A DNA stretch of 28,837 nucleotides, taken from positions 1 through 28,837 of the IMG/VR virus record IMGVR_UViG_3300024518_002777; one strand, 5' to 3'. Position 1 is the first letter of the stretch. Each line of letters begins with the position of its first letter. The notes beneath the pieces are model-generated. The model saw only the letters and a program-made list of their open reading frames with translations, was not told the DNA's origin and did not search any database. The stretch comes from a virus. Below are positions 1,587 to 28,713 of this stretch, piece by piece. The translations under genes and the position numbers were made by a program.

Positions 1587-1699
1587 TGGTTACAAGAGGG
1601 GCTATACTCGGCTGCACACTCATTAGGGTTTCAGGAGAGAGGTCATTGTTGACGTTTATTACGAGCGGTTTCCGAGCGTTCTGGTGAACGATTAGGGCC
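1587..1699. other. Short gap with an orphan ribosome site
   Basis: AGGAGAGAGG at 1633-1642 is a good Shine-Dalgarno, but the only frame it could serve is 16 codons from an ATT at 1645 to TAG 1693-1695. That would encode a peptide ending YYERFPSVLVND. I do not call it a gene. No terminator was seen. Confidence 0.3.
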
Positions 1700-2041
1700 A
1701 TGTGTGGGTTACCCAGTAGGGATTTGGGTACGCAGTCTTTGTTGTTTGGGCCTGCCGGCTATACGTTGAACAAGACGTTTGGCAAAAAGACCACGCAGCG
1801 GATATCTGACAAGCTGGACAAGATTCATATGTCTACGGTTGGCAAGGTGATTGACAAGGACTTCATCAGGAGTCAGGGTTTTTTGCCTGAGAACAATCCC
1901 ACCAATCTTGTAGATCCTGTGGATCTGAAGCAGCAGCGCAAGGACAAGAAGCGTCGTGCCGAGGCGGTGGAGCGCGGCAATACGTTGCGGGCTCTTGGTC
2001 AGACCGGGCGACAACAATCGACATCGATATTAGGAGGCTGA
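1700..2041 (+). CDS. Small basic phage protein starting Met-Cys
   Basis: The product is 113 residues. It starts MCGLPSRD, has a Lys/Arg-rich middle (KQQRKDKKRRAEAVERG) and ends GRQQSTSILGG. I do not recognise a named domain. The Met-Cys start and the GR-x-STxIL tail motif resemble those of the small protein at 4925-5125 and of small proteins next to portals in related phages, so the two may be paralogues or share a virion role. ATG 1700 is preceded by a weak TTAGGG. The stop (2039-2041) lies one base before the next ATG, so the two genes are probably translationally coupled. Confidence 0.65.
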   Translation: MCGLPSRDLGTQSLLFGPAGYTLNKTFGKKTTQRISDKLDKIHMSTVGKVIDKDFIRSQGFLPENNPTNLVDPVDLKQQRKDKKRRAEAVERGNTLRALGQTGRQQSTSILGG

Positions 2042-2042
2042 A

Positions 2043-2426
2043 ATGGCCCGCGAAGTAATTTTGTTTGCAAGTGAAGCCAGGATTCTGACCGAGAACAGCG
2101 AGAAGGTGGTTCAGGTTGGTAACGAGGATTATCGTGGTGTTTGGTTGTATTTGAATGTCACGGCCGGTTCAGGTACGACGCCGACGCTGGACGTGAAGTT
2201 GCAGCGTCAGGAGCCCGCTGGTGATGCGTGGTTGGACATAGCTGGCGCGGTATTTGTGCAGGCGACGGGTACCACCACTGATCAGTTGACGGTGTATCCG
2301 ACCATGACAGCCGCGGCGAACGATGTCGTCAGGGAGCATATCGGTGGAGCCTTCAGGGCGGTGGCGACCATTGGCGGCACTACGCCGAGCTTCACCTTTA
2401 CGCTGGCGGGCTACCTGTTGCGCTAG
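2043..2426 (+). CDS. Beta-rich head decoration-like protein
   Basis: The 127-residue product has alternating hydrophobic strands and a TPTLDVKLQ strand followed later by FRAVATIGGTTPSFTFTLAG. The same strand pair appears in the cement protein at 8788-9219 (TSPTLDVTLE and VGGTTPTITVTAG), so the two likely share a jelly-roll fold. The predicted role is a virion surface or stabilising protein, which is inference. TAGGAGG at 2031-2037 gives the ATG a strong ribosome site, the clearest one in the packaging section, which suggests high expression as expected for a structural protein. It lies directly ahead of terL. Confidence 0.65.
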   Translation: MAREVILFASEARILTENSEKVVQVGNEDYRGVWLYLNVTAGSGTTPTLDVKLQRQEPAGDAWLDIAGAVFVQATGTTTDQLTVYPTMTAAANDVVREHIGGAFRAVATIGGTTPSFTFTLAGYLLR

Positions 2427-2429
2427 TGC

Positions 2430-3980
2430 ATGACTTCCCTGCTCAGGGACATTGATCTCCAGATAGCTGACGAGTCGGCGCAGTATTACGCTGATCCGTT
2501 GGGCTGGGTGATGTGGGCCTTTCCGTGGGGTGAGGCTGGCTCTGAGCTGCAAAACTACACGGGACCGGACGAATGGCAGATCGACGAACTGACGGCGATT
2601 GGCCGCTCGGTTATGGAGCGGAATTTCGATGGTGTGAACCCGGTTTTACCTCTCCAGCGGGCTACGGCTTCTGGGCATGGTATCGGCAAGTCAGCCCTCA
2701 CTTCGTGGTTAATTTTGTGGTTGATGTCTACACGCCCGAAGTGCCGTGGGACAGTGACAGCCAATACTTCGGACCAGCTCAAAACCAAGACCTGGGGTGA
2801 GTTGGATAAGTGGCGTCACCTGTGCATAACCGGTCACTGGTTCGTTTATCACAACTCAAAGGGAAATATGAATCTCAGGCATGTCTCGAATCCTGAGAAA
2901 TGGAGGGTGGATGCCTATACCTGTCGTGAGGAAAATTCCGAGGCGTTTGCTGGTCAACATGCCATCGATTCAACGTCGTTTTATATCTTCGATGAAGCGA
3001 GCAACGTACCTTCAAAGATATGGGAGGTGGCTGAAGGTGGGCTGACTGACGGCGAGCCGATGTTCTTTGTGTACGGCAACCCGACGCGAAACCACGGCAG
3101 ATTCTTTGATTGCTTCAATCGTCAACGCGAGCTGTGGGACACGCGGCAGATAGACTCTCGCGACTGCAAGTTCCCGAACAAGGAGCTGCACAAGCGCTGG
3201 ATCAAGATATGGGGCGAGGATTCAGATTACGTTCGAGTTCGAATACTGGGAAGATTCCCGAGGGCGGGCGATATGCAGTTTATTCCAAGTGACGTCGTGA
3301 CTGAGTGTATGGCGACTGACCCGATCTACGTGGATGACGATCCGCTCATTATGGGCATTGACGTTGCTCGAGGCGGTGAGGACCGCAATGTCATTTGTTA
3401 CCGCAAGGGCAGGGATGCGCGATCCTGGCCGACCTACATCATTCCCGGCGAAAAGACGCGCGACTCGATGTTGCTGGTATCGAAAATCACTGATCTTTGC
3501 GACCCGCAACGGACACGGAGCTACAAGGGAATTCCAATGCTGCCCGATGCGATCTTTGTCGATGAAACGGGTTTGGGCGGGCCAATCGTGGATCGGCTGC
3601 GGCAGTTGGGCCTGAACGTGTTTGGCGTTAATTTTGGCTCCTCGCCGTTTGATAAGCAGCATTTTGTGAACCGTTCGGCCGAGATGTGGTTCCGGATGAG
3701 GGAATGGCTGATCGCCGGTGGCGCGCTCAAGGATCATCCCGAGCTGGAAATGGATCTTACCGCCAGAGGCTTTACGCACAATGCCAAGGATCAACTGGTG
3801 CTCGAATCCAAGGATGATATGAAAAAGCGCGATCTGGCCTCGCCTGACTGGGGCGATGCCCTGGCACTGACCTTCGCGCTGAATGTGACCAAGATCGAGC
3901 GCGATCAGCGCGGCAGGATCAGGCAAGGCAATGCCGGCGCCGCCATAACTGACTACGACCCGATGGAGTTCAACTTATGA
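2430..3980 (+). CDS. terL: Terminase large subunit (packaging ATPase and nuclease)
   Basis: The 516-residue protein is the motor that pumps and cuts phage DNA at the portal. The N-terminal ATPase shows the Walker A loop GHGIGKS (residues 82-88) and the Walker B/catalytic pair FDEAS (D188, E189). The C-terminal RNase H-like nuclease shows the three acidic positions expected for metal binding: D311 in GIDVARGGEDRN, D378 in FVDETGLGG and D476 in PDWGDAL. Length is normal for the family. The ATG at 2430 has no clear Shine-Dalgarno and lies 4 bases after the previous stop, so it probably relies on coupling. Its stop overlaps the next gene as ATGA. Confidence 0.95.
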   Translation: MTSLLRDIDLQIADESAQYYADPLGWVMWAFPWGEAGSELQNYTGPDEWQIDELTAIGRSVMERNFDGVNPVLPLQRATASGHGIGKSALTSWLILWLMSTRPKCRGTVTANTSDQLKTKTWGELDKWRHLCITGHWFVYHNSKGNMNLRHVSNPEKWRVDAYTCREENSEAFAGQHAIDSTSFYIFDEASNVPSKIWEVAEGGLTDGEPMFFVYGNPTRNHGRFFDCFNRQRELWDTRQIDSRDCKFPNKELHKRWIKIWGEDSDYVRVRILGRFPRAGDMQFIPSDVVTECMATDPIYVDDDPLIMGIDVARGGEDRNVICYRKGRDARSWPTYIIPGEKTRDSMLLVSKITDLCDPQRTRSYKGIPMLPDAIFVDETGLGGPIVDRLRQLGLNVFGVNFGSSPFDKQHFVNRSAEMWFRMREWLIAGGALKDHPELEMDLTARGFTHNAKDQLVLESKDDMKKRDLASPDWGDALALTFALNVTKIERDQRGRIRQGNAGAAITDYDPMEFNL

Positions 3981-13252: not shown

Positions 13253-15076
13253 ATGGGCCTAACAGTACCTACAGTCGTAACAGAGAGCGTTCGCAGCGCG
13301 CCTATTAACGCGCCACTACAGCCGGTCAAAGGGGCTGGTGTTGACGTTAGTGGCCTGACGCAAGGGCTGGATGCTGGTCAAGCGGCGCTGGAAAGTGCTG
13401 AGTTGCAGCTATCTCAAATCCGTATCTCCAGCGCCGAGACTGACATTCTGAATCGCTGGAACGCGCGCCTTAATGAGGACGACGACGCCTACTTCAAGAG
13501 TGGCGGTCAGGATGCTGTTGAACGGCTTGACCCATCCATGCAGGAGCTGGATCAGATTGCCTCAGAGGTTATGGGCGGGCTGAAGAACGGCACTGAGCGT
13601 CGCATTTTGACAGATGCCCTTGCTCTGAGGCGCATGAACAACCGTACCAAGATGTCGTTGCACTCGTTCGATTCGCGGCAGGAGTGGGATGAGAACACCG
13701 CGCTGGGTAATCGTGCCGCTCAAATCGAATCGGCAATCAATGATCCGTCGCCTGAGAATCTAAGGCTTTCTCGCGAACGAGTCATTGACGAAACCAACGC
13801 GATATCAAAGATCAACCACCTACCGCCGGAGGCGGCTGAGGTTAATGCCGCTGTGGCGGTCAGTGCTATGTATAAGGCGGTGATCGACAACCTTATCGCG
13901 CAGCAAAAGCCGTTCGAGGCAATGGAAGCCTTTGCTCGCTACGGGCCGGCCGGTACTGATGAAATTCTCGGCGACGATGAAACTAAATTAACCGCGGATC
14001 TGGCTGAAATGACGATCTCTGTGCAGTCCAGTGCGCTCGCGCTTGAGGCTCGTAACAGTAGTGACAATGCCAAGGAACAGCTAGCTCACGCCAGAAACAA
14101 GTTTGGCCCGACGCCAACCCCGCAAGAGATTGCGATCATTGAGGCGGCGACAGCCAAGGTCACGGCACAGCGGAGCCAGGAAGAAACTGCCGACACTATC
14201 GCCAACAAAGAGAATTACGATTATCTTGGTGAGCAGATTATGGCTGCGTTGCGTGTTCCAGGTGCATCCAGAGGCATCGAACTCATTGAGGGTCTGCGGT
14301 CCACGCACCGAGAGCGATTTGATGATTTATCGACAGCACAGCGAGCAAGTCTTGTTGCACTTGCAGGCGCTGGCACGCCAACACAAACGACGCCAGAAGG
14401 GCTGGCGGTCAGGGCTCAGATACTTGATCTGGCGGCTCTGAACCCAGCCGAACTCAAGCGCATCGTTACCGACGAAGAAGGTAACAGGTCGTTTGCTTAT
14501 GACGCTGGAAACTACCGCTCGATACTAAGTGAGTCAGATTGGAAGGAAGTTGATAAGGCCATCCGTGACGCGAAGGGTGCAGGAATAACCAGCGATACAA
14601 GTTACTTGCAGTCCCAGCAAACGACGCTGAATGAAAGAGCTGGTCAAGCTGGTATTGACCTGACCGTTTCCGCTGATGACTTGTCGGATACTGCGATCAG
14701 GCTGCAAAGAGAAACACAGCAGCGCGTGAGCGATTTTGAGTGGATACAGGGTCGTAAGCCACTTGCGCCAGAGTATGACGAAATTCTCGATAGGGTCTTT
14801 ATGCGGGTTCTTTTGCCTGACAATAGGACGCGCCCCGAGCTGTTTAGTGTATTTGCGCCAATCCAGCAGGCACTATTTGAATCAGGCGCTGCTGACCCAG
14901 TGTTTGCCTTCAAGTTGGAGCTAAAGGACATTCCAGCCAGTCACCGCGAAGAACTCAGACAGGCGTTCTTCAATACAAAGGGCAGGTTCCCTAATGAGAA
15001 CGAGGAACTTGATTTTTACGCTGATATTTTGAGCCGGCGCGGCTCGCGCGAGAAACTGTTAGGTGAGGGCCGTTGA
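13253..15076 (+). CDS. Internal virion protein C (T7 gp15-like)
   Basis: The 607-residue product is almost entirely predicted helix. It has a short Pro/Val-rich start, then VSGLTQGLDAGQAALESAEL, LNRWNARLNEDDDAYFKSGGQDAVERL, and long acidic/Ala helices with turns. The position between gp14-like and the giant gene, together with this helical make-up, fits the gp15-type tube protein that is ejected into the periplasm. Sequence resemblance to T7 gp15 itself is not obvious; the call rests on order and general features. The short spacing (3 bases after the previous stop) suggests coupling. The stop overlaps the next start as TTGA. Confidence 0.7.
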   Translation: MGLTVPTVVTESVRSAPINAPLQPVKGAGVDVSGLTQGLDAGQAALESAELQLSQIRISSAETDILNRWNARLNEDDDAYFKSGGQDAVERLDPSMQELDQIASEVMGGLKNGTERRILTDALALRRMNNRTKMSLHSFDSRQEWDENTALGNRAAQIESAINDPSPENLRLSRERVIDETNAISKINHLPPEAAEVNAAVAVSAMYKAVIDNLIAQQKPFEAMEAFARYGPAGTDEILGDDETKLTADLAEMTISVQSSALALEARNSSDNAKEQLAHARNKFGPTPTPQEIAIIEAATAKVTAQRSQEETADTIANKENYDYLGEQIMAALRVPGASRGIELIEGLRSTHRERFDDLSTAQRASLVALAGAGTPTQTTPEGLAVRAQILDLAALNPAELKRIVTDEEGNRSFAYDAGNYRSILSESDWKEVDKAIRDAKGAGITSDTSYLQSQQTTLNERAGQAGIDLTVSADDLSDTAIRLQRETQQRVSDFEWIQGRKPLAPEYDEILDRVFMRVLLPDNRTRPELFSVFAPIQQALFESGAADPVFAFKLELKDIPASHREELRQAFFNTKGRFPNENEELDFYADILSRRGSREKLLGEGR

Positions 15077-18000
15077 CAGACAAGCCCATCAGCATAGGGC
15101 TTGATCAGGACAGCGAGCCGGAAGAAGTTGTCACAGATAAGTTCACTCCTGCACAGAGCAACCTGGATAGCGTTATAGAGTTTCGTGAGGCACAGACTCG
15201 CCAAGCGGTGAGTGTGGGTGTTGAGAAGAACCCCGACCAAGAGGCCAAGGTAGTAAGCCTGTCGGAACAGACCGGCCTACCACCTGACACCGTTGAGCGA
15301 CAGCTTAGCGATGTTGAGAAGCGCCAGAAAACCTTAGACCTTTTGGCGCAGGATTACGGTCGACGGGCTCCGTCACTCCGAAATAAATTAGCCGACCCGT
15401 CGTTCGTCGGCATGACCCACGACGACATGGAGAACCTTGTTCGCACCGAAGAAGTGATGCGTAACAATGACATGGGCTACCTGGAGAAGATCGGGGCCAA
15501 CTATAAGAAGAACCGCGCACTGGTGGAGTCGTCAGAGATTGGTGTCGCGCGCTGGCAAGCTCAGCTTGGTATTGGTGATGAGGTGAGCGAGCGTCAATTA
15601 CTACGGCTCGAGAACCTTGAGAAAGATACCGGCTTCACGCACGAAACCGGCTTCTTTGCTGGTATCCCTGTTGAGTCGGTCGGTATGTTGCCGATGGTGT
15701 TCGACGTACTGGCCGAGGGTGGTATTGCTGGAACTGGTGGTGCAGCCCTTGGTGGCGCTATCGGTTTTGCAGCGACGCGCACACCAGCGGGCGCTACGGC
15801 TGGCGCTAAGTTCGGTGGTGGGCTGGCGTTCAAAATGGGTGCGTTTCACTCCGTTTTTAACATCGAATCAGGACTTGCCTACAACGATTACGTTCAGACT
15901 GATGGCATTGACCGTGACATGGCGGCAAAGGCGTCAATCGTGGTTGGTGCCATCAATGGTTCGCTTGAGTTCTTCTCGCTGTCGCTCATAGGGCGCACTG
16001 TAACGCCAGCTCTGCGCTCCGTTATCCGCTCCAGAGTAAGGCGCATGATGGCGACTGAAACTGGCAGACAGGTAATTCAGCGCATTGCAGGACGCTATTT
16101 GGCCGCTGCCGGCGGTGAAGGGCTCACCGAGGGGATGCAGGAAGTCTCGACCATGGCCGGCGAAGTGTTTGCCGGCATGTTCAAAGAGGGCGAGGAGGTC
16201 ACCGAAGAAAATCTCAACACTGCCTTTGATGAGATGCAGGGGGCGCTGCCGGAGATAATCAAGTCAGATGAGGTGAAGGGCGCTGCGCTGGTTGGGCTTC
16301 AGGCTGGTCTTGGCCTTTCGTTCCCAGGCTCGGTTGCCAGTAGCGTTAGCCAAACCCGCGGCAAGAAAACAAAAACGAATGTTGAGCAAGGGCGCATCGA
16401 TAAGATCGTTGAGCTGTCAACCGATGCCAAGCTACGGCCACGCTCGGGCAAGGTCTACCGGCAAACGATTGAGGAGATCGCCGAGGAGATCGAGGCAACC
16501 ACTGGTGAGGTCAATGAGATCTACTGGACCGCCAGCGAGGCCCTGAAGTGGCTTGAAGCTGAGGAAATAGACATAAACGAGCCGCCCCCTTCTGCTGGGG
16601 TGGCTTCCATTCTCGAGCAACTGTCAGACGCACTGGCTACCGACGGCGATATTGTGCTGTCGATCGCTGACTTTGCGACTGACATAGCGCCGAGCGAGAA
16701 CTTTGCCGAGACTGTCAGGGCTCACGTAAAGATGAGCGACGATGCGTTCACCCAGGGCGAGCTAAAGGACGTCGATGCAACGGTCGAGAAGCGCATTAAA
16801 AAGCTGATCGACGACGCCAAGATATCGGTCGAAACTCAGCGACAGGTTGAGTTAATTGCAGCACAGGTGACGGAACAGCTTATCGACACGAACAAGCTGG
16901 ACAAGGAATCTGCGAAAACCTCTGCCTCACTGATATCGAACTACGTGCTGACCAAAGCCGCGCGCACTGGTATGTCGGTCGAGGACGTATTCGCCAAAAT
17001 GGGGATTGAGATTGTCGGACCCGAACACGCGCCGCTTGAGGGCGATGCGATTCTGGATCAGGTGATCGAGGCGAACCGGATGGCCGAAGTGCAGCTCGCT
17101 AGGCTGGATGAAGAAGGCGCACGACTGGATCAGGAGTCGGAAATTATTGGCGCCCAGATTGGGCAGTTCGATAATTTTGTCGAAATGCTGTCACGTAATC
17201 TTGGGATTGATTTTCGGGAGGCGACTGACACTGACCTTGAGGGTAATTTCTTTGAGGCGCTGAGTCAGGAAACGCTACCGAAAGGATCGAACTTTGACTT
17301 CGGGCCGGCTGGTGTGGCTGTTTTCCCGTTTCAGGATATTGAGGGTACTCAGGCGACCCCCTCGGGGCTGACGCAACAGGTTCGCGGCTTGCAGGAAGCG
17401 AATCAGGCCAACATTGATCGCCAAGCTGAGATTGAGGCTCGCCGCGAAGAAATAGGCCAGCAGCGGTCACAGATTGACACTGGCGCTCGGTTCTTCAATC
17501 AGGGTCCGGTCGATGAGACTGGCGACCTGTTCGCCAAAATGGAGGAAGAAATTGACTTTGCTCCGATTGAAGAAGGCGAAAGCGCGGTCGAGGTAAAGGC
17601 TGATATCAACCGCCTGTCGAAGATGCTGGGACCGCAGCTCTACGGCAACATGAGTGATATGCCGCGGGTCACGATCAAGGAGCTGGTGCAGAATTCGTTT
17701 GACGCCATCAAGGATTTAATCGGCACTGAGAACGAAGTCGACGATCCGATTATCCAGGTCACAACCGATCCGAGCGAGCGCACCATTACGGTTGAGGATA
17801 ACGGCATTGGTATGACGCCTGACATTATCCGCGATGCCTTCCTGACGATAGCTGGGACACACAAAGAAAGCGACCGACCATCGGGTAGCTTTGGTGTGGC
17901 GAAAATGCTGTTCCTGTTTGGCGCTGACCGAATTCAGCTCACAACCGTTCGCGACGGCTTCCGCACCACAATGGATACCACTGGTGAGGAATTACTGAAT

Positions 18001-21000
18001 AGTTCTTCCGAGGGCGGGACGCAGCCGACGATCAAGACTGAAAGGACCGATCAGCCGTCCGGCACGACTATAGTGGTCACAATTCCGGCGAGCTACAACG
18101 ATACGTCGACCGGCGAGCAACGAAACATCTTCTCGCCGTCTGGATACATGGTCGAAGAAGTCTTGCAGCATAGCCCGCTGCTCGAGGACGTCCAGGTAAT
18201 CAGTAACGGCCAGTCGCTTGATATTGGCTCCGAGTTCCCGATTGAAAACTACGCGCCGCTGGCGACGGTCAGATTTGATTGGGGCGAAATCGATGTACTG
18301 ATAAGCAAGGATGAGCAACCGGGCGCTACTGCCGGCAAGAATATGCACATTCTGTCGAACGGCTTGTGGCAATTCAGCTCGGCGCTCAAAGAAAATCCGT
18401 TTGCGTTCATGGGTCCGAATGTCCCGAGAGTCGTTTACATCAACGTGAAGCCAGCCGGTACGCCGGCCCAACCTGGCTATCCGTTTGTGCTGAATCGTCA
18501 AGCAATGACAACGGACGCTGGTAACGACCTTGCCAAGATTCAGAACTTTATGTCGGCGATCTTCGGTGCAGACCAGACCGAGGAACTGGCGAAAGGCTTT
18601 GGCGTTATCAGGCAGATTGACGCCGAGGGCAATCTGACTGAGGAAAAGAATCTCACGCCGGATACGTCGACCATCGTTCGACCGACTTTCAACTTTGATC
18701 CTGGCGATGTGATTGAGGTCAAAGAGGGCGTACTGACGCGCAATGGCGAGGTGATCGAGCCTATCGATCAGGATGGCTTTGAGGCGGCACGAATCGACGT
18801 TTCAGCGTTCAGGGTCGATGAGGGCGTTGTCGATCCGAACCTGCCGATCATTCATAACGCGGTGGTCCGTGAGGGTGACGGCAAAGCGTTGCTCGATGTG
18901 CTGTTCGAGGAATTCGGCGAGCAACGGGTAGTCGCTTACTTCGCCAAGTTCACGACCATTTTCACCAGTCTGCGTGACACCCTGAACGAGAAGGGCCGGA
19001 CTGACTTTGACGGCGTAGATAAATTCCCGGTGGGTACGTTCTTCGATAAGGCCGGTGGCAACTTCACTGAGAATAATCCCGGCGCGGTATTCGGCATCAA
19101 TATCCGAGTGCCGTTCGACGGTATGTTTATCAATCCGGCGCAGAGTTCGATCGATCCGCAAATCAATCCCGACTCAAAGGAAACAGTGTTTGACAGCCAG
19201 CGGCACAGGGCTGAGATTATCGCCGCGAACATGATTACGACCATGATTCACGAAATGGCTCACTTCTCGGAAATGAACCACGAACTGTCATTCATCAACG
19301 CCTTGCAAAGCGCTATGGCAACGCTCACGATCGAGGCCGATTTGCAGACCGTTACATCGCAGCTCGGTCGGCACATAGGAGAGAATCTTGACATCTTCAA
19401 TTCAGCAAACGAAAAGCTCTACTCAAGGGATTACCGGAATCCTGGGGCAGCTCTCGAAGACAGTGGCACCGCAGCTTCCCAAGATGCGCGCGGCGATACA
19501 GGGGGAGATACGGCTGTCGGCGAGCGAGGGGAACAAACCGGAGTATCTGGACCGGATGCAGAAAGCACTGGCGTTGCTGGATCAGAGCAAGTCGATGAAG
19601 GGTTTTCTGAAGGAGTCGGCAAGTCTAAGGCTGTAAACTCTGCGCCGGGTAGCGTTCATCCAGAAGCCGGTAACGGCTCGCAGCTCAACCAGATATTTAA
19701 CCAGGACACCAGCGACACTGAGTTTAGTGAGGAAATACTTACTGCGCATGGCCGCGTGGTCAAGGCGGCAGAAAAGCTAGATAGTCATTTTTCTGAAGGG
19801 CCGGAAGGTTCGACTGTTTCTTCTGGCGTTGCTGGCCCTCAAAAGGCGGCGGTTACAAGGGCGCAAAATGCGCTATCCAAAGCAATTCGTGAGCAGTTTC
19901 CAGATGCTACGCCGCAAGAAAATGTGAACATAAGGACGGCGCTCGCTGAAGGTGAAACGGTACTCAAGCAGGACACGCGCGGCGAAATCTTATTCGACAA
20001 CGAGGCTGAAACCGCGATCATTCGGCTCACTGAGGCGGCTGATCTTTCGACCTTCCTGCATGAGTCCGGCCACCTGTTTCTCGAAATGGAAAAGCGGTTC
20101 TTCAATGATCCGTCAATTTCTGACAGCGCCAAAGCCGACAGTCAGGCGATCCTCGACTGGCTGGGTGTCGACTCGTTCGAGGACATTGAAACCAAACACC
20201 ATGAGAAGTTTGCTCGGGGCTTCGAGGCTTATCTTTACGAGGGTAAGGCTCCAAGCGCCGAGTTACGGGGTGCGTTCCGTAGGTTCTCGGCATGGTTGCA
20301 GAAAATCTATCAGGGGCTCAGGCAGCTCAATGTGCAGCTCAGTCCTGAAATCATCGGTGTGTTCGATCGGATGCTGGCGACGGATGAACAGATAGCCGAG
20401 GTCAAAGAGCAAATGGCGCTTGAGCCGTTGTTCAAGACGGCTGAAGAAGCTGATATGACGCCCGAGGAATTCGTCGAGTATCAGGAAAAGAGCCAGGGTC
20501 GTGCCGAAGAAGAACTCCGCAAGAAGGTACTGGCGCAGCTCACTCGAACGGCGACGAAGTGGTGGCGTGAGGAACTGGCGAAAGTACAGGATGAGGTTCG
20601 TGAGGAACTGTCGGCGCTTGAGTTGTACCGGGCGATCGCCTTCCTGCGCGCCGCTGACCCGCCGGAAGGCTTTGAAGAAAACAAAATGGACCGGGATACG
20701 GTCTATCAGATGCTCGGGCTGGCCTCACCAACCGAGGTGCGCCGAGATCCAAAGGCCGTACACCCTGACGTTGATTCGCTGAGCGTAGCAATAGCCAAGC
20801 TGGGTGGACTGGATCGCGAGGAGGCCGAGTTACAAGGCGTCGATCCCGCTCACTGGCGCAACATAAAGGTACTCAAGACCGACAAAAAGACCGGGCAGAA
20901 GGTACTTCGCAGCGTACCGAATCCAGAGAACATGCCGGCAGGGGTTACCAAGCGCCTGTTCAAGGCTGAGGGCGGGCGTACCTTTGATGAGATGCGCGAG

Positions 21001-24000
21001 CTGCTGGCCGAGCAGGGCATGGACTACCTGGACGAAGATACAACGGCCAGCGATCTACTTGAAAAGCTGCTGGAGGATCTATCCGGCGACACGCAGTATT
21101 CCAAGCAAGCCAACTTTGACCTGCTGTTCGAGAACCCGAACGAGGTTCCCAAGGAGCGGTTCAAGGCTCCGGCGCAGCTCCGCGGCCTGACCAAAAAAGG
21201 TGGCATAAGTCCTAGCTCGGTGGCTGAGATATTCGGTTTTGCGTCAGGATATGAGCTGGTGACGCAGATTATGGAGTCGCCGACGCTTAACTTTGCTGTT
21301 GAGCGCAAGTCGAATGAGGTCATGGTGCAGCGTCACGGTGACATTCTCAATGACGGTACGCTCGAGCGAGAGGCGATTGAGGCGTCGCACAACACGGAAC
21401 AGGGCTCAGCATTGCTGGCGGAACTTCGTGCGCTGTCGGGGCAGACGAACATACAGGCGATCAGTGAGCGCAAGGCCATCAAGGATGCGGCAGAGCGGAT
21501 CATCGGCGGCAAGCGTATTAGTACCTTGCGGCCAGCCCAGTACCACGCCGCTGAGGTCAAGGCAGCAAAGGCCGCTCAAGAGGCTATGGACACTGGCGAC
21601 CTTGAGGCAGCACAGGCGGCGAAGCAAAAACAGGTGTTCAACTTCTACCTGTGGCGAGCGGCGACCGAGGCCAGGACGAAAGCTGACAAGATGCAGAAGC
21701 GGCTGCGCACCATGCAGACGAAGAACTATCCGGCCTCAGCGGTGCGGGCTGACTATGCCGGCCAATTGAAGCAATTCCTCGCGGCCTATGATTTCAGGCG
21801 CTCCAATTCTCAGGCACGGCACAACGGCCAGCAGCTACTTGATTCGGTTAAGAAGTGGATTCGGGACCAGCAGGAAGATCCCAAGTCGCCAGCGAACATC
21901 ATTGATGCCGACCAGCTCACGACGATTATTCACTATCGGGACATGACGCTCGATCAGCTACAGGCAGTGCATGACGTAGCGAACAGCTTACTCAATGCCG
22001 GCCGCAAGAATAGCAAGGCCGAGAAAGAACAGTTCAACGCCAACATGAAGATCATGGCTGAGCATATTGCTGAGGTCGCCGCAAAGAAAAAAGACCTTGG
22101 TATCGAGGACACCAAGGCACGCCGCAAGACACAGTGGAGCCGAGCCGTATTTGCCTATCATCGCAAGCTGGAAAGTTTCGTGCGCGAACTGGATGCGTTC
22201 GAGGAGCTGGGACCGTTCTGGAAGCTGATTATCAAGCCGCTACTGGACGCCAATAACAAGAAGCTGAAGATGCAGGAAGCTGCACATGACAGCCTGGATG
22301 CGATATTTGAGGGCCATGACGGGCTGTTCAACGAGAACAAGGATAAGCGCAGTTTCACGCTGGAGAGTGGCCGTAAGATTCAGCTTTCTCTGGGTGGTCG
22401 AATCGCGATGCTGCTTAATTGGGGCAATGAGGGGAGCCGGGCGGCTACCCTGAATCAGCATGACTTGGTGCTGACGAACAAGGACGTGGAAACAATACTC
22501 GCCACATTGAGCGATACCGATCTGGATTTAGCGCAAGACATCTGGGACTACATCGATACGTACTGGCCTGAAATAGCCAAGCAAGAGCGCGACCTTACCG
22601 GCGTTGTTCCTGTCAAGGTTGAGGCCAGCGAGTTCACGGTGAATGGTCGCAAGATGAAGGGCGGCTACTATCCGCTGGTCGAAGATATCGCGCGCGGTCG
22701 GTTCGTTGAAAGCGACGCACAGCGCGAAGCCCGACAAGCAAGGGAGAAGATTGGCGGCACGACCCGCGCCATGACGGCACACGGCTGGACAAACGAGCGC
22801 CGCAACTTCGCCGGCAAGAGCATAGACCTGAATATTGACGTGGTGTTCAGCCATGTCGAGGCAGTGATTCACGATTTGAGTCACCGCCAAGCCGTAATGG
22901 ACGTTGACCGCGTGCTGAGCAACAAGGATATCGCTGACGCGATCAAGAACTCTCTGGGTAGAGAAGCACACCAGTCCATGAAGAACACGGTTGCGGAGGT
23001 TGCTGGCGGTCAGGTGAATACCAGGGAGTTGAGTCAGGTACAGGCAACGCTGCGCTGGTCGCGTTTGGCAATTACTTACGGCGCGCTGGGATTCTCACTG
23101 AAAACCGGGTTCTCACAGATGCTCGGCTTTGCTACCGCGGTCGGCGAGTTCGGTGGCCGTGAGGTGGTGGTGCGCGGGGTGATTGACTACATGAGTAACC
23201 CTGTCGAAAACAGGGCATTCATTGAAGCAAACTCTGTTTTTATGCGCGAGCGTGGCAAGACAATGCACCGCGACGTAACCGACATCCTGCAAGGGCTGAA
23301 GGGCTCCACGACAATGAACACTCTCAGGAAGAAAGCGTTTCTGTTCCTGCTCTCTGGTGACCGCGCTATCTCGCTGCCGGTGTGGTGGGGTCAGTATCAG
23401 GTCGGTATGGATCGGGTGGCCGACCCTGCGTTTGAGGGGTTTGTCACGGAGCAAGATGCAATCGATTGGGCTGATCGCTCAGTTTCGCGCACACAGCAGT
23501 CCGGCCTGCTTATGGATCTGGCGAACATTGAGAGCAAAAACGAGTTCATCAAAATGTGGACCGTGATGTATTCGGCCTTCTCGGCGATTTACCAAATTGC
23601 CGTGGAACAAGGGAAAAAGGCACAGCTCGGCAAGATCAACCGTATTGAGTACGTCTACAACATGATGTGGATTCTGGTTATCCCGCCGCTGTTCGAGGAG
23701 CTGATGACAGGTCGCGAGGACGATGACGACGAGGATAGCAATATCGTCAACAACCGCTGGACTAAATCTGTCGCCGGATTTTCGCTCGGCACGATGGCCG
23801 GCTTGAGAGAGATTGGCTGGCTCATGGAAGCCGGCATGAACAGTGAGCTGCCAATGCAGAGGGTTCTGAAAACACCGTTCGACCTGGGTACGCAGATCGC
23901 GCAGTTTGAGATTGACGCCGCCTTTATCCGCGCTGCCTTTGCGGTTCCGCAACTCTTTCACATACCGGGCGGTTCGCAACTAACCCGCACGATGCAGTAT

Positions 24001-24114
24001 TTGTTAGCATTGGAAGAAGGCGACGAGGAAGGCTTCAATGCTTGGGAGTTCCTGGTGACCGGCCCGCGCGAGGAAAGCGACGAGGCCCGACGCAAGCGCG
24101 AGGATTCGCAGTAG
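15073..24114 (+). CDS. Giant polyvalent internal/ejection protein with GHKL ATPase and two metalloprotease motifs
   Basis: The 3013-residue product (about 330 kDa) sits where T7 gene 16 would be, and takes 31% of the window. Start TTG 15073 overlaps the previous stop and has AGGTGAGGG upstream. In order: helical N-terminus; a Gly/Ala-rich hydrophobic, pore-like part (191-275); a LPD-like segment with DIVLSIADFATDIA (about 520-540); a GHKL/HSP90-type ATPase with ELVQNSFDAI (870-879), DNGIGM (909-914) and GSFGVAK (938-944); then a zinc-type HEMAHFSEMNH (1393-1403). A Gly/Asp-rich linker follows (about 1456-1522). Next come a second HESGH (1663-1667) with a following FARGFEAYLYEGKAPS block, a GGLDREEAELQGVDP segment near 1912, long helices, and a hydrophobic patch near 2862. 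The pattern matches phage polyvalent proteins that are injected with DNA. Enzyme activities are predicted, not shown. Confidence 0.85.
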   Translation: MTDKPISIGLDQDSEPEEVVTDKFTPAQSNLDSVIEFREAQTRQAVSVGVEKNPDQEAKVVSLSEQTGLPPDTVERQLSDVEKRQKTLDLLAQDYGRRAPSLRNKLADPSFVGMTHDDMENLVRTEEVMRNNDMGYLEKIGANYKKNRALVESSEIGVARWQAQLGIGDEVSERQLLRLENLEKDTGFTHETGFFAGIPVESVGMLPMVFDVLAEGGIAGTGGAALGGAIGFAATRTPAGATAGAKFGGGLAFKMGAFHSVFNIESGLAYNDYVQTDGIDRDMAAKASIVVGAINGSLEFFSLSLIGRTVTPALRSVIRSRVRRMMATETGRQVIQRIAGRYLAAAGGEGLTEGMQEVSTMAGEVFAGMFKEGEEVTEENLNTAFDEMQGALPEIIKSDEVKGAALVGLQAGLGLSFPGSVASSVSQTRGKKTKTNVEQGRIDKIVELSTDAKLRPRSGKVYRQTIEEIAEEIEATTGEVNEIYWTASEALKWLEAEEIDINEPPPSAGVASILEQLSDALATDGDIVLSIADFATDIAPSENFAETVRAHVKMSDDAFTQGELKDVDATVEKRIKKLIDDAKISVETQRQVELIAAQVTEQLIDTNKLDKESAKTSASLISNYVLTKAARTGMSVEDVFAKMGIEIVGPEHAPLEGDAILDQVIEANRMAEVQLARLDEEGARLDQESEIIGAQIGQFDNFVEMLSRNLGIDFREATDTDLEGNFFEALSQETLPKGSNFDFGPAGVAVFPFQDIEGTQATPSGLTQQVRGLQEANQANIDRQAEIEARREEIGQQRSQIDTGARFFNQGPVDETGDLFAKMEEEIDFAPIEEGESAVEVKADINRLSKMLGPQLYGNMSDMPRVTIKELVQNSFDAIKDLIGTENEVDDPIIQVTTDPSERTITVEDNGIGMTPDIIRDAFLTIAGTHKESDRPSGSFGVAKMLFLFGADRIQLTTVRDGFRTTMDTTGEELLNSSSEGGTQPTIKTERTDQPSGTTIVVTIPASYNDTSTGEQRNIFSPSGYMVEEVLQHSPLLEDVQVISNGQSLDIGSEFPIENYAPLATVRFDWGEIDVLISKDEQPGATAGKNMHILSNGLWQFSSALKENPFAFMGPNVPRVVYINVKPAGTPAQPGYPFVLNRQAMTTDAGNDLAKIQNFMSAIFGADQTEELAKGFGVIRQIDAEGNLTEEKNLTPDTSTIVRPTFNFDPGDVIEVKEGVLTRNGEVIEPIDQDGFEAARIDVSAFRVDEGVVDPNLPIIHNAVVREGDGKALLDVLFEEFGEQRVVAYFAKFTTIFTSLRDTLNEKGRTDFDGVDKFPVGTFFDKAGGNFTENNPGAVFGINIRVPFDGMFINPAQSSIDPQINPDSKETVFDSQRHRAEIIAANMITTMIHEMAHFSEMNHELSFINALQSAMATLTIEADLQTVTSQLGRHIGENLDIFNSANEKLYSRDYRNPGAALEDSGTAASQDARGDTGGDTAVGERGEQTGVSGPDAESTGVAGSEQVDEGFSEGVGKSKAVNSAPGSVHPEAGNGSQLNQIFNQDTSDTEFSEEILTAHGRVVKAAEKLDSHFSEGPEGSTVSSGVAGPQKAAVTRAQNALSKAIREQFPDATPQENVNIRTALAEGETVLKQDTRGEILFDNEAETAIIRLTEAADLSTFLHESGHLFLEMEKRFFNDPSISDSAKADSQAILDWLGVDSFEDIETKHHEKFARGFEAYLYEGKAPSAELRGAFRRFSAWLQKIYQGLRQLNVQLSPEIIGVFDRMLATDEQIAEVKEQMALEPLFKTAEEADMTPEEFVEYQEKSQGRAEEELRKKVLAQLTRTATKWWREELAKVQDEVREELSALELYRAIAFLRAADPPEGFEENKMDRDTVYQMLGLASPTEVRRDPKAVHPDVDSLSVAIAKLGGLDREEAELQGVDPAHWRNIKVLKTDKKTGQKVLRSVPNPENMPAGVTKRLFKAEGGRTFDEMRELLAEQGMDYLDEDTTASDLLEKLLEDLSGDTQYSKQANFDLLFENPNEVPKERFKAPAQLRGLTKKGGISPSSVAEIFGFASGYELVTQIMESPTLNFAVERKSNEVMVQRHGDILNDGTLEREAIEASHNTEQGSALLAELRALSGQTNIQAISERKAIKDAAERIIGGKRISTLRPAQYHAAEVKAAKAAQEAMDTGDLEAAQAAKQKQVFNFYLWRAATEARTKADKMQKRLRTMQTKNYPASAVRADYAGQLKQFLAAYDFRRSNSQARHNGQQLLDSVKKWIRDQQEDPKSPANIIDADQLTTIIHYRDMTLDQLQAVHDVANSLLNAGRKNSKAEKEQFNANMKIMAEHIAEVAAKKKDLGIEDTKARRKTQWSRAVFAYHRKLESFVRELDAFEELGPFWKLIIKPLLDANNKKLKMQEAAHDSLDAIFEGHDGLFNENKDKRSFTLESGRKIQLSLGGRIAMLLNWGNEGSRAATLNQHDLVLTNKDVETILATLSDTDLDLAQDIWDYIDTYWPEIAKQERDLTGVVPVKVEASEFTVNGRKMKGGYYPLVEDIARGRFVESDAQREARQAREKIGGTTRAMTAHGWTNERRNFAGKSIDLNIDVVFSHVEAVIHDLSHRQAVMDVDRVLSNKDIADAIKNSLGREAHQSMKNTVAEVAGGQVNTRELSQVQATLRWSRLAITYGALGFSLKTGFSQMLGFATAVGEFGGREVVVRGVIDYMSNPVENRAFIEANSVFMRERGKTMHRDVTDILQGLKGSTTMNTLRKKAFLFLLSGDRAISLPVWWGQYQVGMDRVADPAFEGFVTEQDAIDWADRSVSRTQQSGLLMDLANIESKNEFIKMWTVMYSAFSAIYQIAVEQGKKAQLGKINRIEYVYNMMWILVIPPLFEELMTGREDDDDEDSNIVNNRWTKSVAGFSLGTMAGLREIGWLMEAGMNSELPMQRVLKTPFDLGTQIAQFEIDAAFIRAAFAVPQLFHIPGGSQLTRTMQYLLALEEGDEEGFNAWEFLVTGPREESDEARRKREDSQ
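19388..19636 (+). other. Overlapping +1-frame coding-like segment inside the giant gene
   Basis: An 82-codon frame (TTG 19388 to TAA 19636) reads +1 to the long gene. It has AGGAGAG at 19377-19383 as a possible ribosome site. Its codons (CTG, CAG, AAG, GAG, GCG) look like those of neighbouring genes, and its peptide contains LSKTVAPQLPKMRAAIQGEI and PEYLDRMQKALALLDQSK, a normal helical protein. The long frame here gives a Gly/Asp/Ser-rich linker using rarer codons (GGG, GGA, ACA). It may be an overprinted gene, the true C-terminus of an originally separate upstream gene, or a frameshift in the assembly. Confidence 0.4.
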
Positions 24115-24143: not shown

Positions 24144-26972
24144 ATGACCATCAATACAACGTCGACATCGAGCGGACCCTATACCGGAACTGGTGCGGTT
24201 GATACCTATGCGTATGACTTCAAGATCCAACTTTCATCGGAAATTGTGGTTGTTGAAACTGATGCAGCAAGTGTGTCGACGACCCTGGTTGAGGGAACAA
24301 ATTATTCAGTGACCGGTGTTGGCGTCAACGGTGGTGGCAATGTTGTGCGAACGGCCGGCAACCTTCCGACCGGCTACACATGGTTTATTTCAAGGGCTAC
24401 GGCGCAGACGCAAGAGGCTGATTTTGCCGGGCAGGGTCCGTTCACGCCGCTTTCGCATGAAAATGCGTTTGACAAGCTGACGCAGATACTTCAGGAAATC
24501 GACGACAAAACGATCGACATTCCTGCGTCGGTGCGCGCGGGCAATATCTACTCGTTTGACGATGCTGGTGACAGTGAGGCAAACATTGATGCTGACGCTG
24601 TTCGGGCTGTAGTGGCTGGCGCCTTGGCGACCGGCGTTGCAATGACTGTAGATAGCTTTACTGGTGATGGCAGTACAGCCGGCTTCACGATGTCTATATC
24701 ACCGCCGAGCGCCAATTCAGTACTGGCAACCATCGACGGTGTGATGCAGTTACCGGGCACTGACTTCACGATATCCGGTGCGGTTGTGACGTTTAATGCA
24801 GCGCCGCCGAATAGCTCTAGCGTTGTGCTGAGGAACATCGGTAATACTGCGCCGGCATTGACGGTCGACTCCACGAATGTATCGCACCTGGTATCGAAAA
24901 CAGGTGCAGTAACGAGAAACGTTCAATCTGCCCTGATGGAGCGAACCAGCATTTCTGATTTTGGGGCTGTTGGTGATGGAATTGCTGATGATACTGTGCC
25001 CATTCAAAACGCCCTCGATGCTCTTGAGGCCAGTGGTGGCATCGTCTTTGGTGATCCGTCTGCGAACTACTTTTTTACCACCAATATAATCGTTCCCACT
25101 GGCGTCACGCTCGATGGTCAGGGCTGTACGTTCACGGCTGATTCAACCGGGTTTACCCTGGTCAAGGTGGCGTCCAATCCTGCCGGCGTGATGACCAACA
25201 AAAACAGGTTTAGCTTTGGCTCTGCGCCTGATGTTGTTCACTTCCGTAACTTCACGCTGGACTGCGGAATTCAGGAGTTGTCGGCTGGAATCATGCTGTC
25301 GAACACGACCGGATCAAGTATTGATAACGTCCGAGTCATTACGACAGCGGGCACGTCAATGTCGGCCCTGATCGATCTTGATGGGCAAAATACTCATGTA
25401 AGGATAACGCGCAACCGCCTCGAGCAAATACAGGGCGCCGGTGTAAATGGTGCATGTATTGCAATACGGAACCCCGATCAGGTAATCATCTCAGAAGATA
25501 TCGTCATCAGAGATAACTACCTGAAGAAAATCGGCCCATCGAATACTGATGAGCTTATGTGGATCAATGGTGCGGGTGGTGATACGCGCAACGTGCGTGT
25601 ACTGAGCAATACCTTTGAGACTGGCGCAACGGATACATCCTCGTCGGCCCTGACCATCTACCGCTTCACTAACAGCGGCGCCATTCCGAACGCTCTTTGC
25701 TCTGACATCATTGTGTCTGACAATTATTTCAACTGTGAGCACTCAACCTTCACGGTAATCCTGCTTGGCTTTACTGGTGATACCACTGGCACGCCTTTGC
25801 ACAATGTTCGCATTCGCGGCAACACGATCAAATTCAAACTCGGCGCCGGCATTGCTGCGGCCAGCAATATCTCGGATATTCTGATTAACGAGAACTCCTT
25901 TGAAAACACCAACACCGACACCACGACACTGACCGCGATCAGCTTGTCAACGTGGCCGAATGAGCCGGCGACTGTCAGTGGTAACAGGGCTTTCGGTAAG
26001 ATTTCCAGATTTGCGATTGGCCTTGCAGATGTTGTCGATAATTATGTCGACGACTGCCTGATCTTTGCCAAGGGCTGTAATTCTGTGAAGGGCAATAATG
26101 CGAACTGCCGCCAGATGGCTACCATGATCGAGGTTGATTGTGACGTAACAGACAACCTTTTCAAGATGACCGAGTACTCAGGCGATGCCAGTGAGGGTGG
26201 ACTGCACTACACGTTCTATGTCACTGGCGCTGATATTGGCTCAAAGATTCAAGATAACAAGGCGGTCATATACGATCCGCGCATTGGCATTCATCGCTCG
26301 TCAGCGGCGCTCACGCCGAAGCTGCAATTCAGCCGCAATGAGATTAGCGACAAGGTGTTCACAATCACTGGTGCGGCCAATAACGGTGGTGGTCTGATTC
26401 GCATTACCTCGGTGGCGCATCAAATGACCACGGGCAAGCAATGTGTGATTAGCGGGGTGGGTGGTACGACCGAGGCAAACGGCACCTGGACAGTGACATT
26501 TGTTGACGCTGACAACTTCGATTTGGACAGCTCGACGTTTACAAACACCTACACTTCAGGTGGTGAGTTCTACGGAATCAATACCGGGTTCCAGGTGTTC
26601 TCAACAGCCTTTCGTGACCTGTACGACAATTTCTTCAACGGCGTCGCTCAACGCAGAACCTCTTATGTAAGCGGACAGCCTAGCGGCCTGGTGATGCACG
26701 AAGAAGAAGCGCTCACCACTTTGGACAACACCGGAACGCCGACCGTGCGCGGTGGTCATGTATTCAAGACCGGTGGAGCCACAGCGATTACAGACTTTGA
26801 CAATGGCGTGGTCGGTCAGACCATCAAAGTCATAGCGGCTCATACGGTTACAGTAACTGACGGTGCGCCAATAATTCTGGCTGGCAGTTTTGCAATGACC
26901 CCATCTGATACACTGACCCTGACGATGTTTGACGATCAGGTGTGGCAGGAAGTCTCTCGTAGCGTGAACTAA
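24144..26972 (+). CDS. Tailspike 1: virion-anchored beta-helix (pectate lyase-like)
   Basis: The product is 942 residues. Residues 1 to about 140 match the T7 gp17-type virion-binding N-terminus (YTGTGAVDTYAYDFKI, then LPTGYTWFISRA and QGPFTPLSHENAFDKLTQIL). A small beta domain with FTGDGSTAGFTMSISPPSAN follows (about 166-235). A pectate-lyase-3-like parallel beta-helix begins at SDFGAVGDGIADDT (D272) and runs to about residue 750. The C-terminus has TPTVRGGHVFKTGG to VWQEVSRSVN, a module shared by many phage spikes. The likely role is binding and perhaps cleaving a surface polysaccharide. The exact substrate and catalytic residues cannot be read here. The gap before it holds palindrome copy C and a GAGGATG ribosome site. 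Confidence 0.88.
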   Translation: MTINTTSTSSGPYTGTGAVDTYAYDFKIQLSSEIVVVETDAASVSTTLVEGTNYSVTGVGVNGGGNVVRTAGNLPTGYTWFISRATAQTQEADFAGQGPFTPLSHENAFDKLTQILQEIDDKTIDIPASVRAGNIYSFDDAGDSEANIDADAVRAVVAGALATGVAMTVDSFTGDGSTAGFTMSISPPSANSVLATIDGVMQLPGTDFTISGAVVTFNAAPPNSSSVVLRNIGNTAPALTVDSTNVSHLVSKTGAVTRNVQSALMERTSISDFGAVGDGIADDTVPIQNALDALEASGGIVFGDPSANYFFTTNIIVPTGVTLDGQGCTFTADSTGFTLVKVASNPAGVMTNKNRFSFGSAPDVVHFRNFTLDCGIQELSAGIMLSNTTGSSIDNVRVITTAGTSMSALIDLDGQNTHVRITRNRLEQIQGAGVNGACIAIRNPDQVIISEDIVIRDNYLKKIGPSNTDELMWINGAGGDTRNVRVLSNTFETGATDTSSSALTIYRFTNSGAIPNALCSDIIVSDNYFNCEHSTFTVILLGFTGDTTGTPLHNVRIRGNTIKFKLGAGIAAASNISDILINENSFENTNTDTTTLTAISLSTWPNEPATVSGNRAFGKISRFAIGLADVVDNYVDDCLIFAKGCNSVKGNNANCRQMATMIEVDCDVTDNLFKMTEYSGDASEGGLHYTFYVTGADIGSKIQDNKAVIYDPRIGIHRSSAALTPKLQFSRNEISDKVFTITGAANNGGGLIRITSVAHQMTTGKQCVISGVGGTTEANGTWTVTFVDADNFDLDSSTFTNTYTSGGEFYGINTGFQVFSTAFRDLYDNFFNGVAQRRTSYVSGQPSGLVMHEEEALTTLDNTGTPTVRGGHVFKTGGATAITDFDNGVVGQTIKVIAAHTVTVTDGAPIILAGSFAMTPSDTLTLTMFDDQVWQEVSRSVN

Positions 26973-26985
26973 CTTGAGGTAAATC

Positions 26986-28713
26986 ATGGTTACTAAGGCA
27001 CACAGTAGGATCCTGGCTCACGTACAGGCCGTTGGCAATGTTGATGACTATGGTGCTGCTGGTGATGGCAGCACTGACGATACAGCAGCCATTCAGGCAG
27101 CGGTAAGTGCTGAAAGAATCCTTGTATTCCCAGGTGACAACTACAAAATTAGTGGCACCGTTACGCTGCCGGCGACCGGGCTCGAGATTGATTTTCTTGG
27201 CGCCACGATCACAGACGGAACGCCCGGCACGGCTCACGATATGTTCCAGTGTGTCGGCGCTGAAAGTTACCTCACTTTCCGCAATGGCAACTTTGTATCG
27301 ACCGGTGTTCTGACTACCTTCTTTGGTCGATCAGGGGCCTCGGCGGTAAATAAGGCGTTCTGGGATGGTTGCAGCTTTACCAAGGGACTGTTTGGCGTGG
27401 ATGTCACGCTGACAACAAATTGCAGGGTGAGTGACTGCAATCTGGTGAACTGCGACAGTGGCGTGAAGTTCAGCAATGCCCTGGATCTGTATATTGTAGA
27501 CAACTATTTTGCTGGTGATGGCACGGCCACAGTGATGAAAACGGCTATCAATGCCTCAGCCTCAAGCGCTGGCACTGCGCGGCGAATTCACATTACCGGG
27601 AACAATGTCAAGGACACTGGCGACTCATCCATATTTGTGCGGTGTTTCGCGGGCTGCACGCTTGAGGACGTCGTTATCAGCGACAATATCCTGCTCAACT
27701 GTGGCAAGGCGGGGATCAAATTTACCTCGCCCAGCGGCAACGAAAATGTACTGATGCGAAATTGCACGATCAGCGATAACGTGGTGCGAGGCTATTCAGT
27801 CAACGTCTCAGGATCAGGGATCATGTCGTTTGTCGACAGCAGTACGGTAACTTTTGTTCTTGAGAATGTTTCGATCACCGGTAACGTCGTTGATGGCAGG
27901 GAGCTGGGTGTTACCAGAAACTTTGGCGGTGCCGGCATCGTAACAAGAAGAATTGACAACCTGACGCTTTGTGATAACGCGGTGAATTACAGTCATCTTC
28001 ATGGCGTTGATGTGTCGAATTGCAACAACGTCACCATGCTTGGAAATGCTGTCGATGAATCAGGACAGGACTGGGTTGGTCTGGATGATGACCACGCTGG
28101 GTTCAAGATATTCCAGATGGTTGATTTCGTATTCGATTCGATCGTCAGGAACACAAACTTCGGTGGTGGTCTGAACTCAGAGAAGATGCAGCATGGCCGT
28201 ATTGGCGGTGTGTTTGCCGCCAATGATGATTATGGCGCTTATCTCAATAGCGGCGGCACAGCCGCAAACAGAACGGCTGACTGCATCTTTGATTTTGTCT
28301 CTCACGACAACGCGGTGGACGACATCAAGTTACCAGTTTCGCCGCTGCTGGCCCGCTGTATGTATACGCTTGGCTGCTCTGATACAACGGGTCCGGTTAC
28401 CGCTGGCAGCACAGCTCGCCGCGATCTGCTGTGGAACAATCAAATCAGCGTCGGTGGGATCTATGCGAATTCTGATACCACGTCGCTTGATCTAAAGGTC
28501 GATGCTACAAACTGGATCAGCTTTGCAGATGCCAGGACGTCGACTACTGCGGCTCTGGCAGCTATTGGAGACGCGATCAACACAAGTGACGCAAAGGTGG
28601 CCGGCTGGACGGTCTGGAACATTAACACGTTAAAGCTGGTAACGGCCTCTGGCAGTGCAGCAGGTAGTGTTTGGGTCGATGCTACGGGCGCAACCGTCCA
28701 TAGTCCGGCGTAG
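26986..28713 (+). CDS. Tailspike 2: beta-helix without own virion anchor
   Basis: The product is 575 residues. It begins with only about 18 residues before DDYGAAGDGSTDDTAAIQAA, the usual entry into a pectate-lyase-like beta-helix. Regular strands with stacked Asn/Asp-rich turns (ITGNNVKDTGD, ISDNILLNCGKAGIK, ITGNVVDGRELG) follow to about residue 450. The C-terminus carries AAIGDAINTS to WVDATGATVHSPA, a repeat ending seen in phage tail proteins. It lacks the gp17-type anchor of the previous gene, so it probably attaches to another tail protein or to spike 1. GAGGTAAATC precedes ATG 26986. It starts 13 bases after spike 1 stops. Confidence 0.85.
   Translation: MVTKAHSRILAHVQAVGNVDDYGAAGDGSTDDTAAIQAAVSAERILVFPGDNYKISGTVTLPATGLEIDFLGATITDGTPGTAHDMFQCVGAESYLTFRNGNFVSTGVLTTFFGRSGASAVNKAFWDGCSFTKGLFGVDVTLTTNCRVSDCNLVNCDSGVKFSNALDLYIVDNYFAGDGTATVMKTAINASASSAGTARRIHITGNNVKDTGDSSIFVRCFAGCTLEDVVISDNILLNCGKAGIKFTSPSGNENVLMRNCTISDNVVRGYSVNVSGSGIMSFVDSSTVTFVLENVSITGNVVDGRELGVTRNFGGAGIVTRRIDNLTLCDNAVNYSHLHGVDVSNCNNVTMLGNAVDESGQDWVGLDDDHAGFKIFQMVDFVFDSIVRNTNFGGGLNSEKMQHGRIGGVFAANDDYGAYLNSGGTAANRTADCIFDFVSHDNAVDDIKLPVSPLLARCMYTLGCSDTTGPVTAGSTARRDLLWNNQISVGGIYANSDTTSLDLKVDATNWISFADARTSTTAALAAIGDAINTSDAKVAGWTVWNINTLKLVTASGSAAGSVWVDATGATVHSPA

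Follow-up and report, generated by a model that had tools for sequence, protein, structure and literature searches.

Overlaps of the phiX174 type are a familiar case of gene overlap, and gene-calling programs whose rules exclude long overlaps on the same strand would probably overlook genes of this kind. The closest known arrangement to the one described here is that of the two-component phage spanins, in which the small gene Rz1 lies wholly within the larger phage gene Rz in the +1 frame (PMC6139136). In the IMG/VR virus record IMGVR_UViG_3300024518_002777, analysed over its full length of 28,837 nucleotides and referred to below as the window, a small +1 gene is likewise predicted to be nested in a phage gene. 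However, unlike the Rz1 lipoprotein, the window peptide contains no cysteine and so does not qualify as an Rz1-type o-spanin. In addition, its coding sequence would lie centrally in a multidomain gene of 9 kb, whereas Rz1 is found towards the end of a small gene, and the peptide, unlike Rz1, goes together with a single domain module in a variety of host proteins.

The surrounding gene is comparable to those of the polyvalent proteins of phages and conjugative elements, which, like the giant ORF of the window, are multidomain and carry zincin-like metallopeptidase motifs and the LPD22 domain (Iyer et al., 2017; PMC5512222). In the main text of that paper, the terms “GHKL”, “HATPase” and “overlapping” have no occurrence, and no description of embedded genes in polyvalent-protein genes was found among the open-access papers listed, including the available parts of PMC5512222 and PMC13299392. 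A module within the giant protein shares the fold, the N-box, G1 and G2 with the Hsp90 family (HtpG, TRAP1), but unlike this family it includes an HExxHxxxxxH peptidase-like domain, and the identity is only about 11–16% among the alignments listed. With toxin-immunity pairs such as colicin D/ImmD, the likeness is by analogy only, namely a small helical protein encoded beside an enzyme domain; ImmD and the embedded protein match neither in sequence nor in fold, the Foldseek E-value of 3.6 being meaningless.

The giant gene, its Hsp90-like module and the sample of relatives

The giant ORF extends from 15073 to 24114 on the plus strand, on which all features described here are located, and encodes 3,013 amino acids from a TTG start codon with AGGTGA 6 nt before it; it is of the polyvalent type and harbours the candidate embedded gene. 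Residues 43–132 (15199–15468) correspond to LPD22 (large polyvalent protein associated domain 22; Pfam PF18834, E 1.4e-14). The conserved C-terminal part, residues 1633–2994 (19969–24054), matches phrog_9880 (E 4.9e-286) and resembles proteins of Bordetella phage BPP-1 and of Caulobacter and Vibrio phages according to tblastn. Upstream of this part lies a 0-frame linker rich in Gly, Asp and Ser (19444–19740), which has about 190 bases in common with the embedded gene, and 3' of the linker a second HExxH motif, HESGH, is present at 20059–20073. With LPD22, an HATPase domain and two HExxH motifs, the giant ORF displays the features of a polyvalent protein, and from this family membership only, packaging of the giant protein in the virion and its delivery into the host would be expected. 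Just 5' of the giant ORF, a 607-aa ORF (13253–15076) overlaps its start by 4 bases, and the first 220 residues of this ORF match phrog_1044 (endolysin). On the 3' side, two genes at 24144–28713 of the window show tail-fibre- or tail-spike-like matches and beta-helix domains.

The module at 17602–19479 (residues 844–1469) combines an Hsp90-like (GHKL) ATPase with an HExxHxxxxxH metallopeptidase-like domain. The assignment as an Hsp90-like GHKL ATPase is based on a match to HATPase_c_3 (E 3.8e-9) and on an AlphaFold model with a pLDDT of 85.5, whose best Foldseek matches are TRAP1/Hsp90 (E 3e-14, with about 11–16% identity among the alignments listed). The residues of the N-box, G1, G2 and HExxH are invariant in the module alignment, and we take the first three sets of columns to be the N, G1 and G2 boxes of the Bergerat fold; the zinc-site motif reads HEMAHFSEMNH (HExxHxxxxxH) at 19249–19281. 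An Hsp90-like ATPase fused to an HExxHxxxxxH peptidase-like domain is abundant in metagenomic viral contigs but hardly ever encountered in named phages or plasmids. The window module yielded only a short partial match in named phages, in Rhodococcus phage Peregrin, and only HtpG or ATP-binding-protein matches in plasmids, and the module of the relative L068 had no match in named phages.

The relatives were collected with a profile of this upstream 0-frame module and not by means of the +1 peptide. The best 80 of 98 related viral loci were taken together with one contig of a bacterial MAG (L085), and three further loci were added, resulting in 84 relatives, all of which (84/84) contain the module. 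Including the window, the dataset comprised 85 loci, which were reduced to 70 distinct loci by collapsing identical +1 segments. Some loci share one contig (e.g., L002 and L071), and the counts over loci given below ignore shared ancestry.

The +1 frame in the linker and its conservation

In the window, the +1 frame contains no stop codon between TAG at 19376–19378 and TAA at 19634–19636, so that an open stretch of 85 codons begins at 19379. The SD-like site AGGAGAG (19377–19383) overlaps the upstream +1 stop, and SD sites are conserved in the relatives. The first +1 start codon is TTG at 19388, with AGGAG ending 6 nt earlier. The candidate gene at 19388–19636 (82 amino acids from TTG, with a core conserved from about 19424) is thus located wholly within the same-strand CDS at 15073–24114 in another frame, as is characteristic of an embedded gene. 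The RNA structure near its start is unremarkable (z 1.18).

The open length alone is not unusual, as the genes of the window contain 11 stop-free +1 runs of at least 85 codons and 33% of the synonymous recodings of 19379–19636 remain open in +1. The codon usage is distinct: the +1 coding log-ratio of +0.052, compared with a recoded mean of -0.303 (sd 0.069), was reached in none of 5,000 synonymous 0-frame recodings, and the 0-frame codon-adaptation score over 19379–19636 is 0.59, which ranks at the 0.3rd percentile within the giant ORF. The frequency of T at the middle codon position is 0.14 in the linker as opposed to 0.27 in the giant ORF. The preliminary description had noted a +1 frame open after TAG 19376 with AGGAGAG, operon-typical +1 codons that encode a helical peptide, and a Gly/Asp/Ser linker with rarer codons in the long frame; the coordinates, the residues and both codon statements agree with the present data, as does the helical character, for which AlphaFold gives four helices.

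All 70 distinct loci, the window included, carry a +1 ORF of at least 70 open codons at this linker, within the giant ORF. When each locus was scored with a profile purged of itself and of all sequences at least 50% identical, 69 of the 70 +1 peptides reached at least 25 bits. In the recoded null of 4,200 peptides the 99.9th percentile is 22.8 bits and the maximum 29.3 bits, against which the L006 peptide is marginal (25.5 bits). The window peptide scores 46.5 bits (E 2e-16) with a profile built without the window, L005 and L026, whereas the 0-frame linker of the window scores -1.7 bits against that profile and 2,000 synonymous recodings of the window give a mean of 0.0 and a maximum of 14.7 bits. 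The exception is L085, the Deltaproteobacteria MAG contig, whose +1 peptide shows no significant similarity to the embedded family (7.5 bits, inside the recoded range); in this contig (3108–5064), the module is accompanied by a +1 ORF with AAGGAGGT and ATG. In a separate scan of viral contigs with an 11-sequence profile of the embedded protein, 33 loci were obtained, all within an ORF of more than 1,000 codons. No standalone copy was detected by tblastn of the window or L068 peptide in 50,697 phage records, and the window peptide itself as query found no relative in the viral contigs.

Linkers poor in middle-T codons could open in +1 by default and yield helical peptides by chance, an artefact of composition in keeping with the low middle-position T and with the proportion of recodings that stay open. 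However, composition accounts in part for the openness, but not for the codon log-ratio (0/5,000). The +1 peptide also fits a profile that the 0-frame linker does not match, and the substitution phase is reversed over the overlap, so that this explanation is very improbable.

The 3,013-aa giant ORF is one intact gene, neither a fusion nor an error. In the relative L005, collinearity with the window holds almost throughout, within a single ORF of 3,355 amino acids that matches window residues 36–650, 829–1528 and 1603–3003. The ORF extends at least 187 residues beyond HExxH in every locus and hundreds in nearly all of them, and a 0-frame linker of the Gly/Asp/Ser type, judged by eye, is kept in frame at the same place in the relatives. 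The leading reading of the preliminary description was that an indel had recently joined two neighbouring genes and that the upstream gene had formerly terminated at 19636 in the +1 frame. The differing codon character of 19379–19636 would fit this reading, as would the L084 locus, in which the giant ORF terminates 187 residues past HExxH; but this stop is situated about 50 codons past the embedded ORF of L084 and so is not the predicted junction. Furthermore, both halves are in one frame in L005, the 0-frame homology extends beyond 19379 (DIFNSANEKLYSRD), and the relatives carry the 0-frame linker plus the +1 ORF at the same place. As the module ORF is continuous in the relatives and L005 is collinear in one frame, a recent fusion is unsupported and its probability is very small. 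In L084 (11150–11260), where the giant ORF stops after about 187 residues, the sequence seems to go on in another frame, which points to a true split of the gene or to an error in sequencing.

A base-calling or assembly error that creates an apparent frame change, which the preliminary description had also considered, would be conceivable in that the window is a single metagenomic contig. However, the same two-frame layout recurs in 70 distinct sequences from many samples and the 0-frame of the window is unbroken through 19379–19636; an error is not required to explain the data and its likelihood is negligible. Among the outcomes outlined beforehand for homologues was a linker kept in frame together with a +1 peptide lacking conservation: the first part was found, yet the second was not, and both frames are conserved.

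Start signals and selection on the two frames

The start column was chosen without reference to the start codons of other loci. An SD site of at least 4 nt, located 5–9 nt before ATG or GTG, is present in 63 of 70 loci, compared with 21.6% of recodings; for sites of at least 6 nt, the values are 27 of 70 loci and 5.2%. ATG or GTG occurs at one alignment column in 51 of 70 loci. Where the 0-frame third base at this column is a synonymous choice, it is T in 51 of 57 cases as opposed to 24.5 expected (p 2.7e-13, with ancestry ignored). The window reads CAA at this commonest start column; it and its close kin lack ATG and GTG there, and the window must use TTG 19388. This codon is homologous in position to the ATG of L005, L004 and L020, upstream of the common column. 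The SD sites of these three loci are weak, and L026 has an ATG with AAGGAGG in the same area as the window TTG. A ribosome-binding site and start codon of its own were thus found for the embedded gene in 63 of 70 loci, and in the window these consist of AGGAG, a spacing of 6 nt and TTG.

Based on sequence comparison, 19388–19636 very probably represents a genuine gene embedded in the giant gene and internally initiated from the same mRNA. Ribosomes would enter the shared mRNA at the embedded gene's own SD site and start codon, and the peptide would be made in cells. A real overlapping gene had been listed as a minor option in the preliminary description; it is now strongly supported by the conservation of the +1 frame, the reversed phase, and the conserved start and SD site. 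The same text had named programmed frameshifting, that is, a +1 slip after the protease domain which would produce the ATPase-protease with a helical tail ending at 19636. The conservation of the +1 protein directly past the protease domain in 70 of 70 distinct loci is compatible with such a slip, which an SD-like site, as is generally known, can also stimulate. However, the ATG/GTG column is kept in 51 of 70 loci by a third-base choice that is silent in the 0-frame, the SD spacing is typical of initiation, and in 46 of 70 loci the start is preceded by a +1 stop no more than 15 codons away, which leaves little room for slippage. No slippery motif was seen by eye in the window. The conserved start codons and SD sites disfavour frameshifting, which is considered quite unlikely.

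The substitution pattern likewise points to a second coding sequence in the overlap. Here, in all four clades of relatives that were compared, the phase of substitutions is inverted, and the third codon position of the 0-frame turns conserved. For pairs that are 5–15% divergent, the overlap shows differences of.154/.086/.081 at codon positions 1/2/3 of the 0-frame, compared with.073/.044/.238 upstream and.065/.029/.232 downstream. The reversal is seen with either the +1-frame or the 0-frame alignment, with a normal phase on both flanks, and also in sliding windows in the four clades, for which the variable-site counts gave p values of 6e-6, 1.2e-5, 5e-5 and 1.8e-5. The dN/dS values of the four clades, calculated by the simple Nei-Gojobori method, which ignores double coding, are 0.30, 0.27, 0.27 and 0.35 for the +1 frame versus 1.00, 0.81, 1.33 and 0.54 for the 0-frame. 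The phase and dN/dS tests cover these four relative clades, the window being without a close relative, and indicate that the +1 frame is under purifying selection there. Selection on the overlap would act mainly via the +1 frame, with the Gly/Asp/Ser linker as a tolerated by-product, and the odd 0-frame codons of the linker may be explained in this way.

The embedded protein and its possible role, and a second family

The embedded protein constitutes a previously unnamed family as judged by database comparison. When 54 members were compared with Pfam, PHROGs and NCBIfam, no family was matched by more than three members (best E 0.0014), and no match of the family in named phages was obtained. 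PADLOC gave no hit. The AlphaFold model of the +1 peptide, with moderate scores (pLDDT 72.8, pTM 0.53), consists of four helices, and the product is probably a small four-helix protein. A Foldseek search with this model gave nothing at E≤0.001, and the best hit of a profile search against the PDB had an E-value of 0.21.

When the giant proteins are clustered by sequence, the module and the embedded gene occur together in 6 clusters of the C-terminal part and 11 of the N-terminal part, from which it follows that the embedded gene tracks the module rather than the remainder of the protein. Because the two stay together in giant proteins that are otherwise unrelated, we infer a dedicated module partner, and the embedded protein would work with the adjoining Hsp90-like ATPase/metallopeptidase module. 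By analogy with immunity proteins, our preferred, though tentative, proposal is that in the producing cell it would bind to the module and keep it inactive, so that the module would remain silent until the giant protein is delivered. Other roles as a partner, for example as an assembly factor or a co-packaged subunit, are, taken together, about equally probable.

A second +1-embedded family was observed in 57 of 84 relatives (E<1e-5), in a different linker upstream of the Hsp90-like module, with examples at L002:2341-2544, L068:7268-7471, L023:7244-7417 and L040:8111-8314. Its members are always in the +1 frame within the giant ORF, share a conserved Trp and Leu and have SD sites, and a second stretch of reversed phase was noticed post hoc in the phase scan of each of the four clades. 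The family is absent from the window and has no match in PHROG, Pfam or named phages. The two embedded families are unrelated according to a profile comparison (probability 2.3%).

Together, these observations suggest, as a possibility still open to considerable doubt, that the disordered linkers of giant phage polyvalent proteins form a hidden coding layer with at least two unrelated families of small proteins, and that the one in the window is a mobile cassette carrying a regulator of the module. The embedded protein of the window would then be a dedicated inhibitor or activator, with the module working only after injection. If this is true, there are phage protein families that are absent from databases, and some “disordered linkers” of giant proteins owe their sequence to a second gene. 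A small protein that is co-inherited with a phage-borne Hsp90-like protease module would also provide a handle on the control of delivered effector domains.
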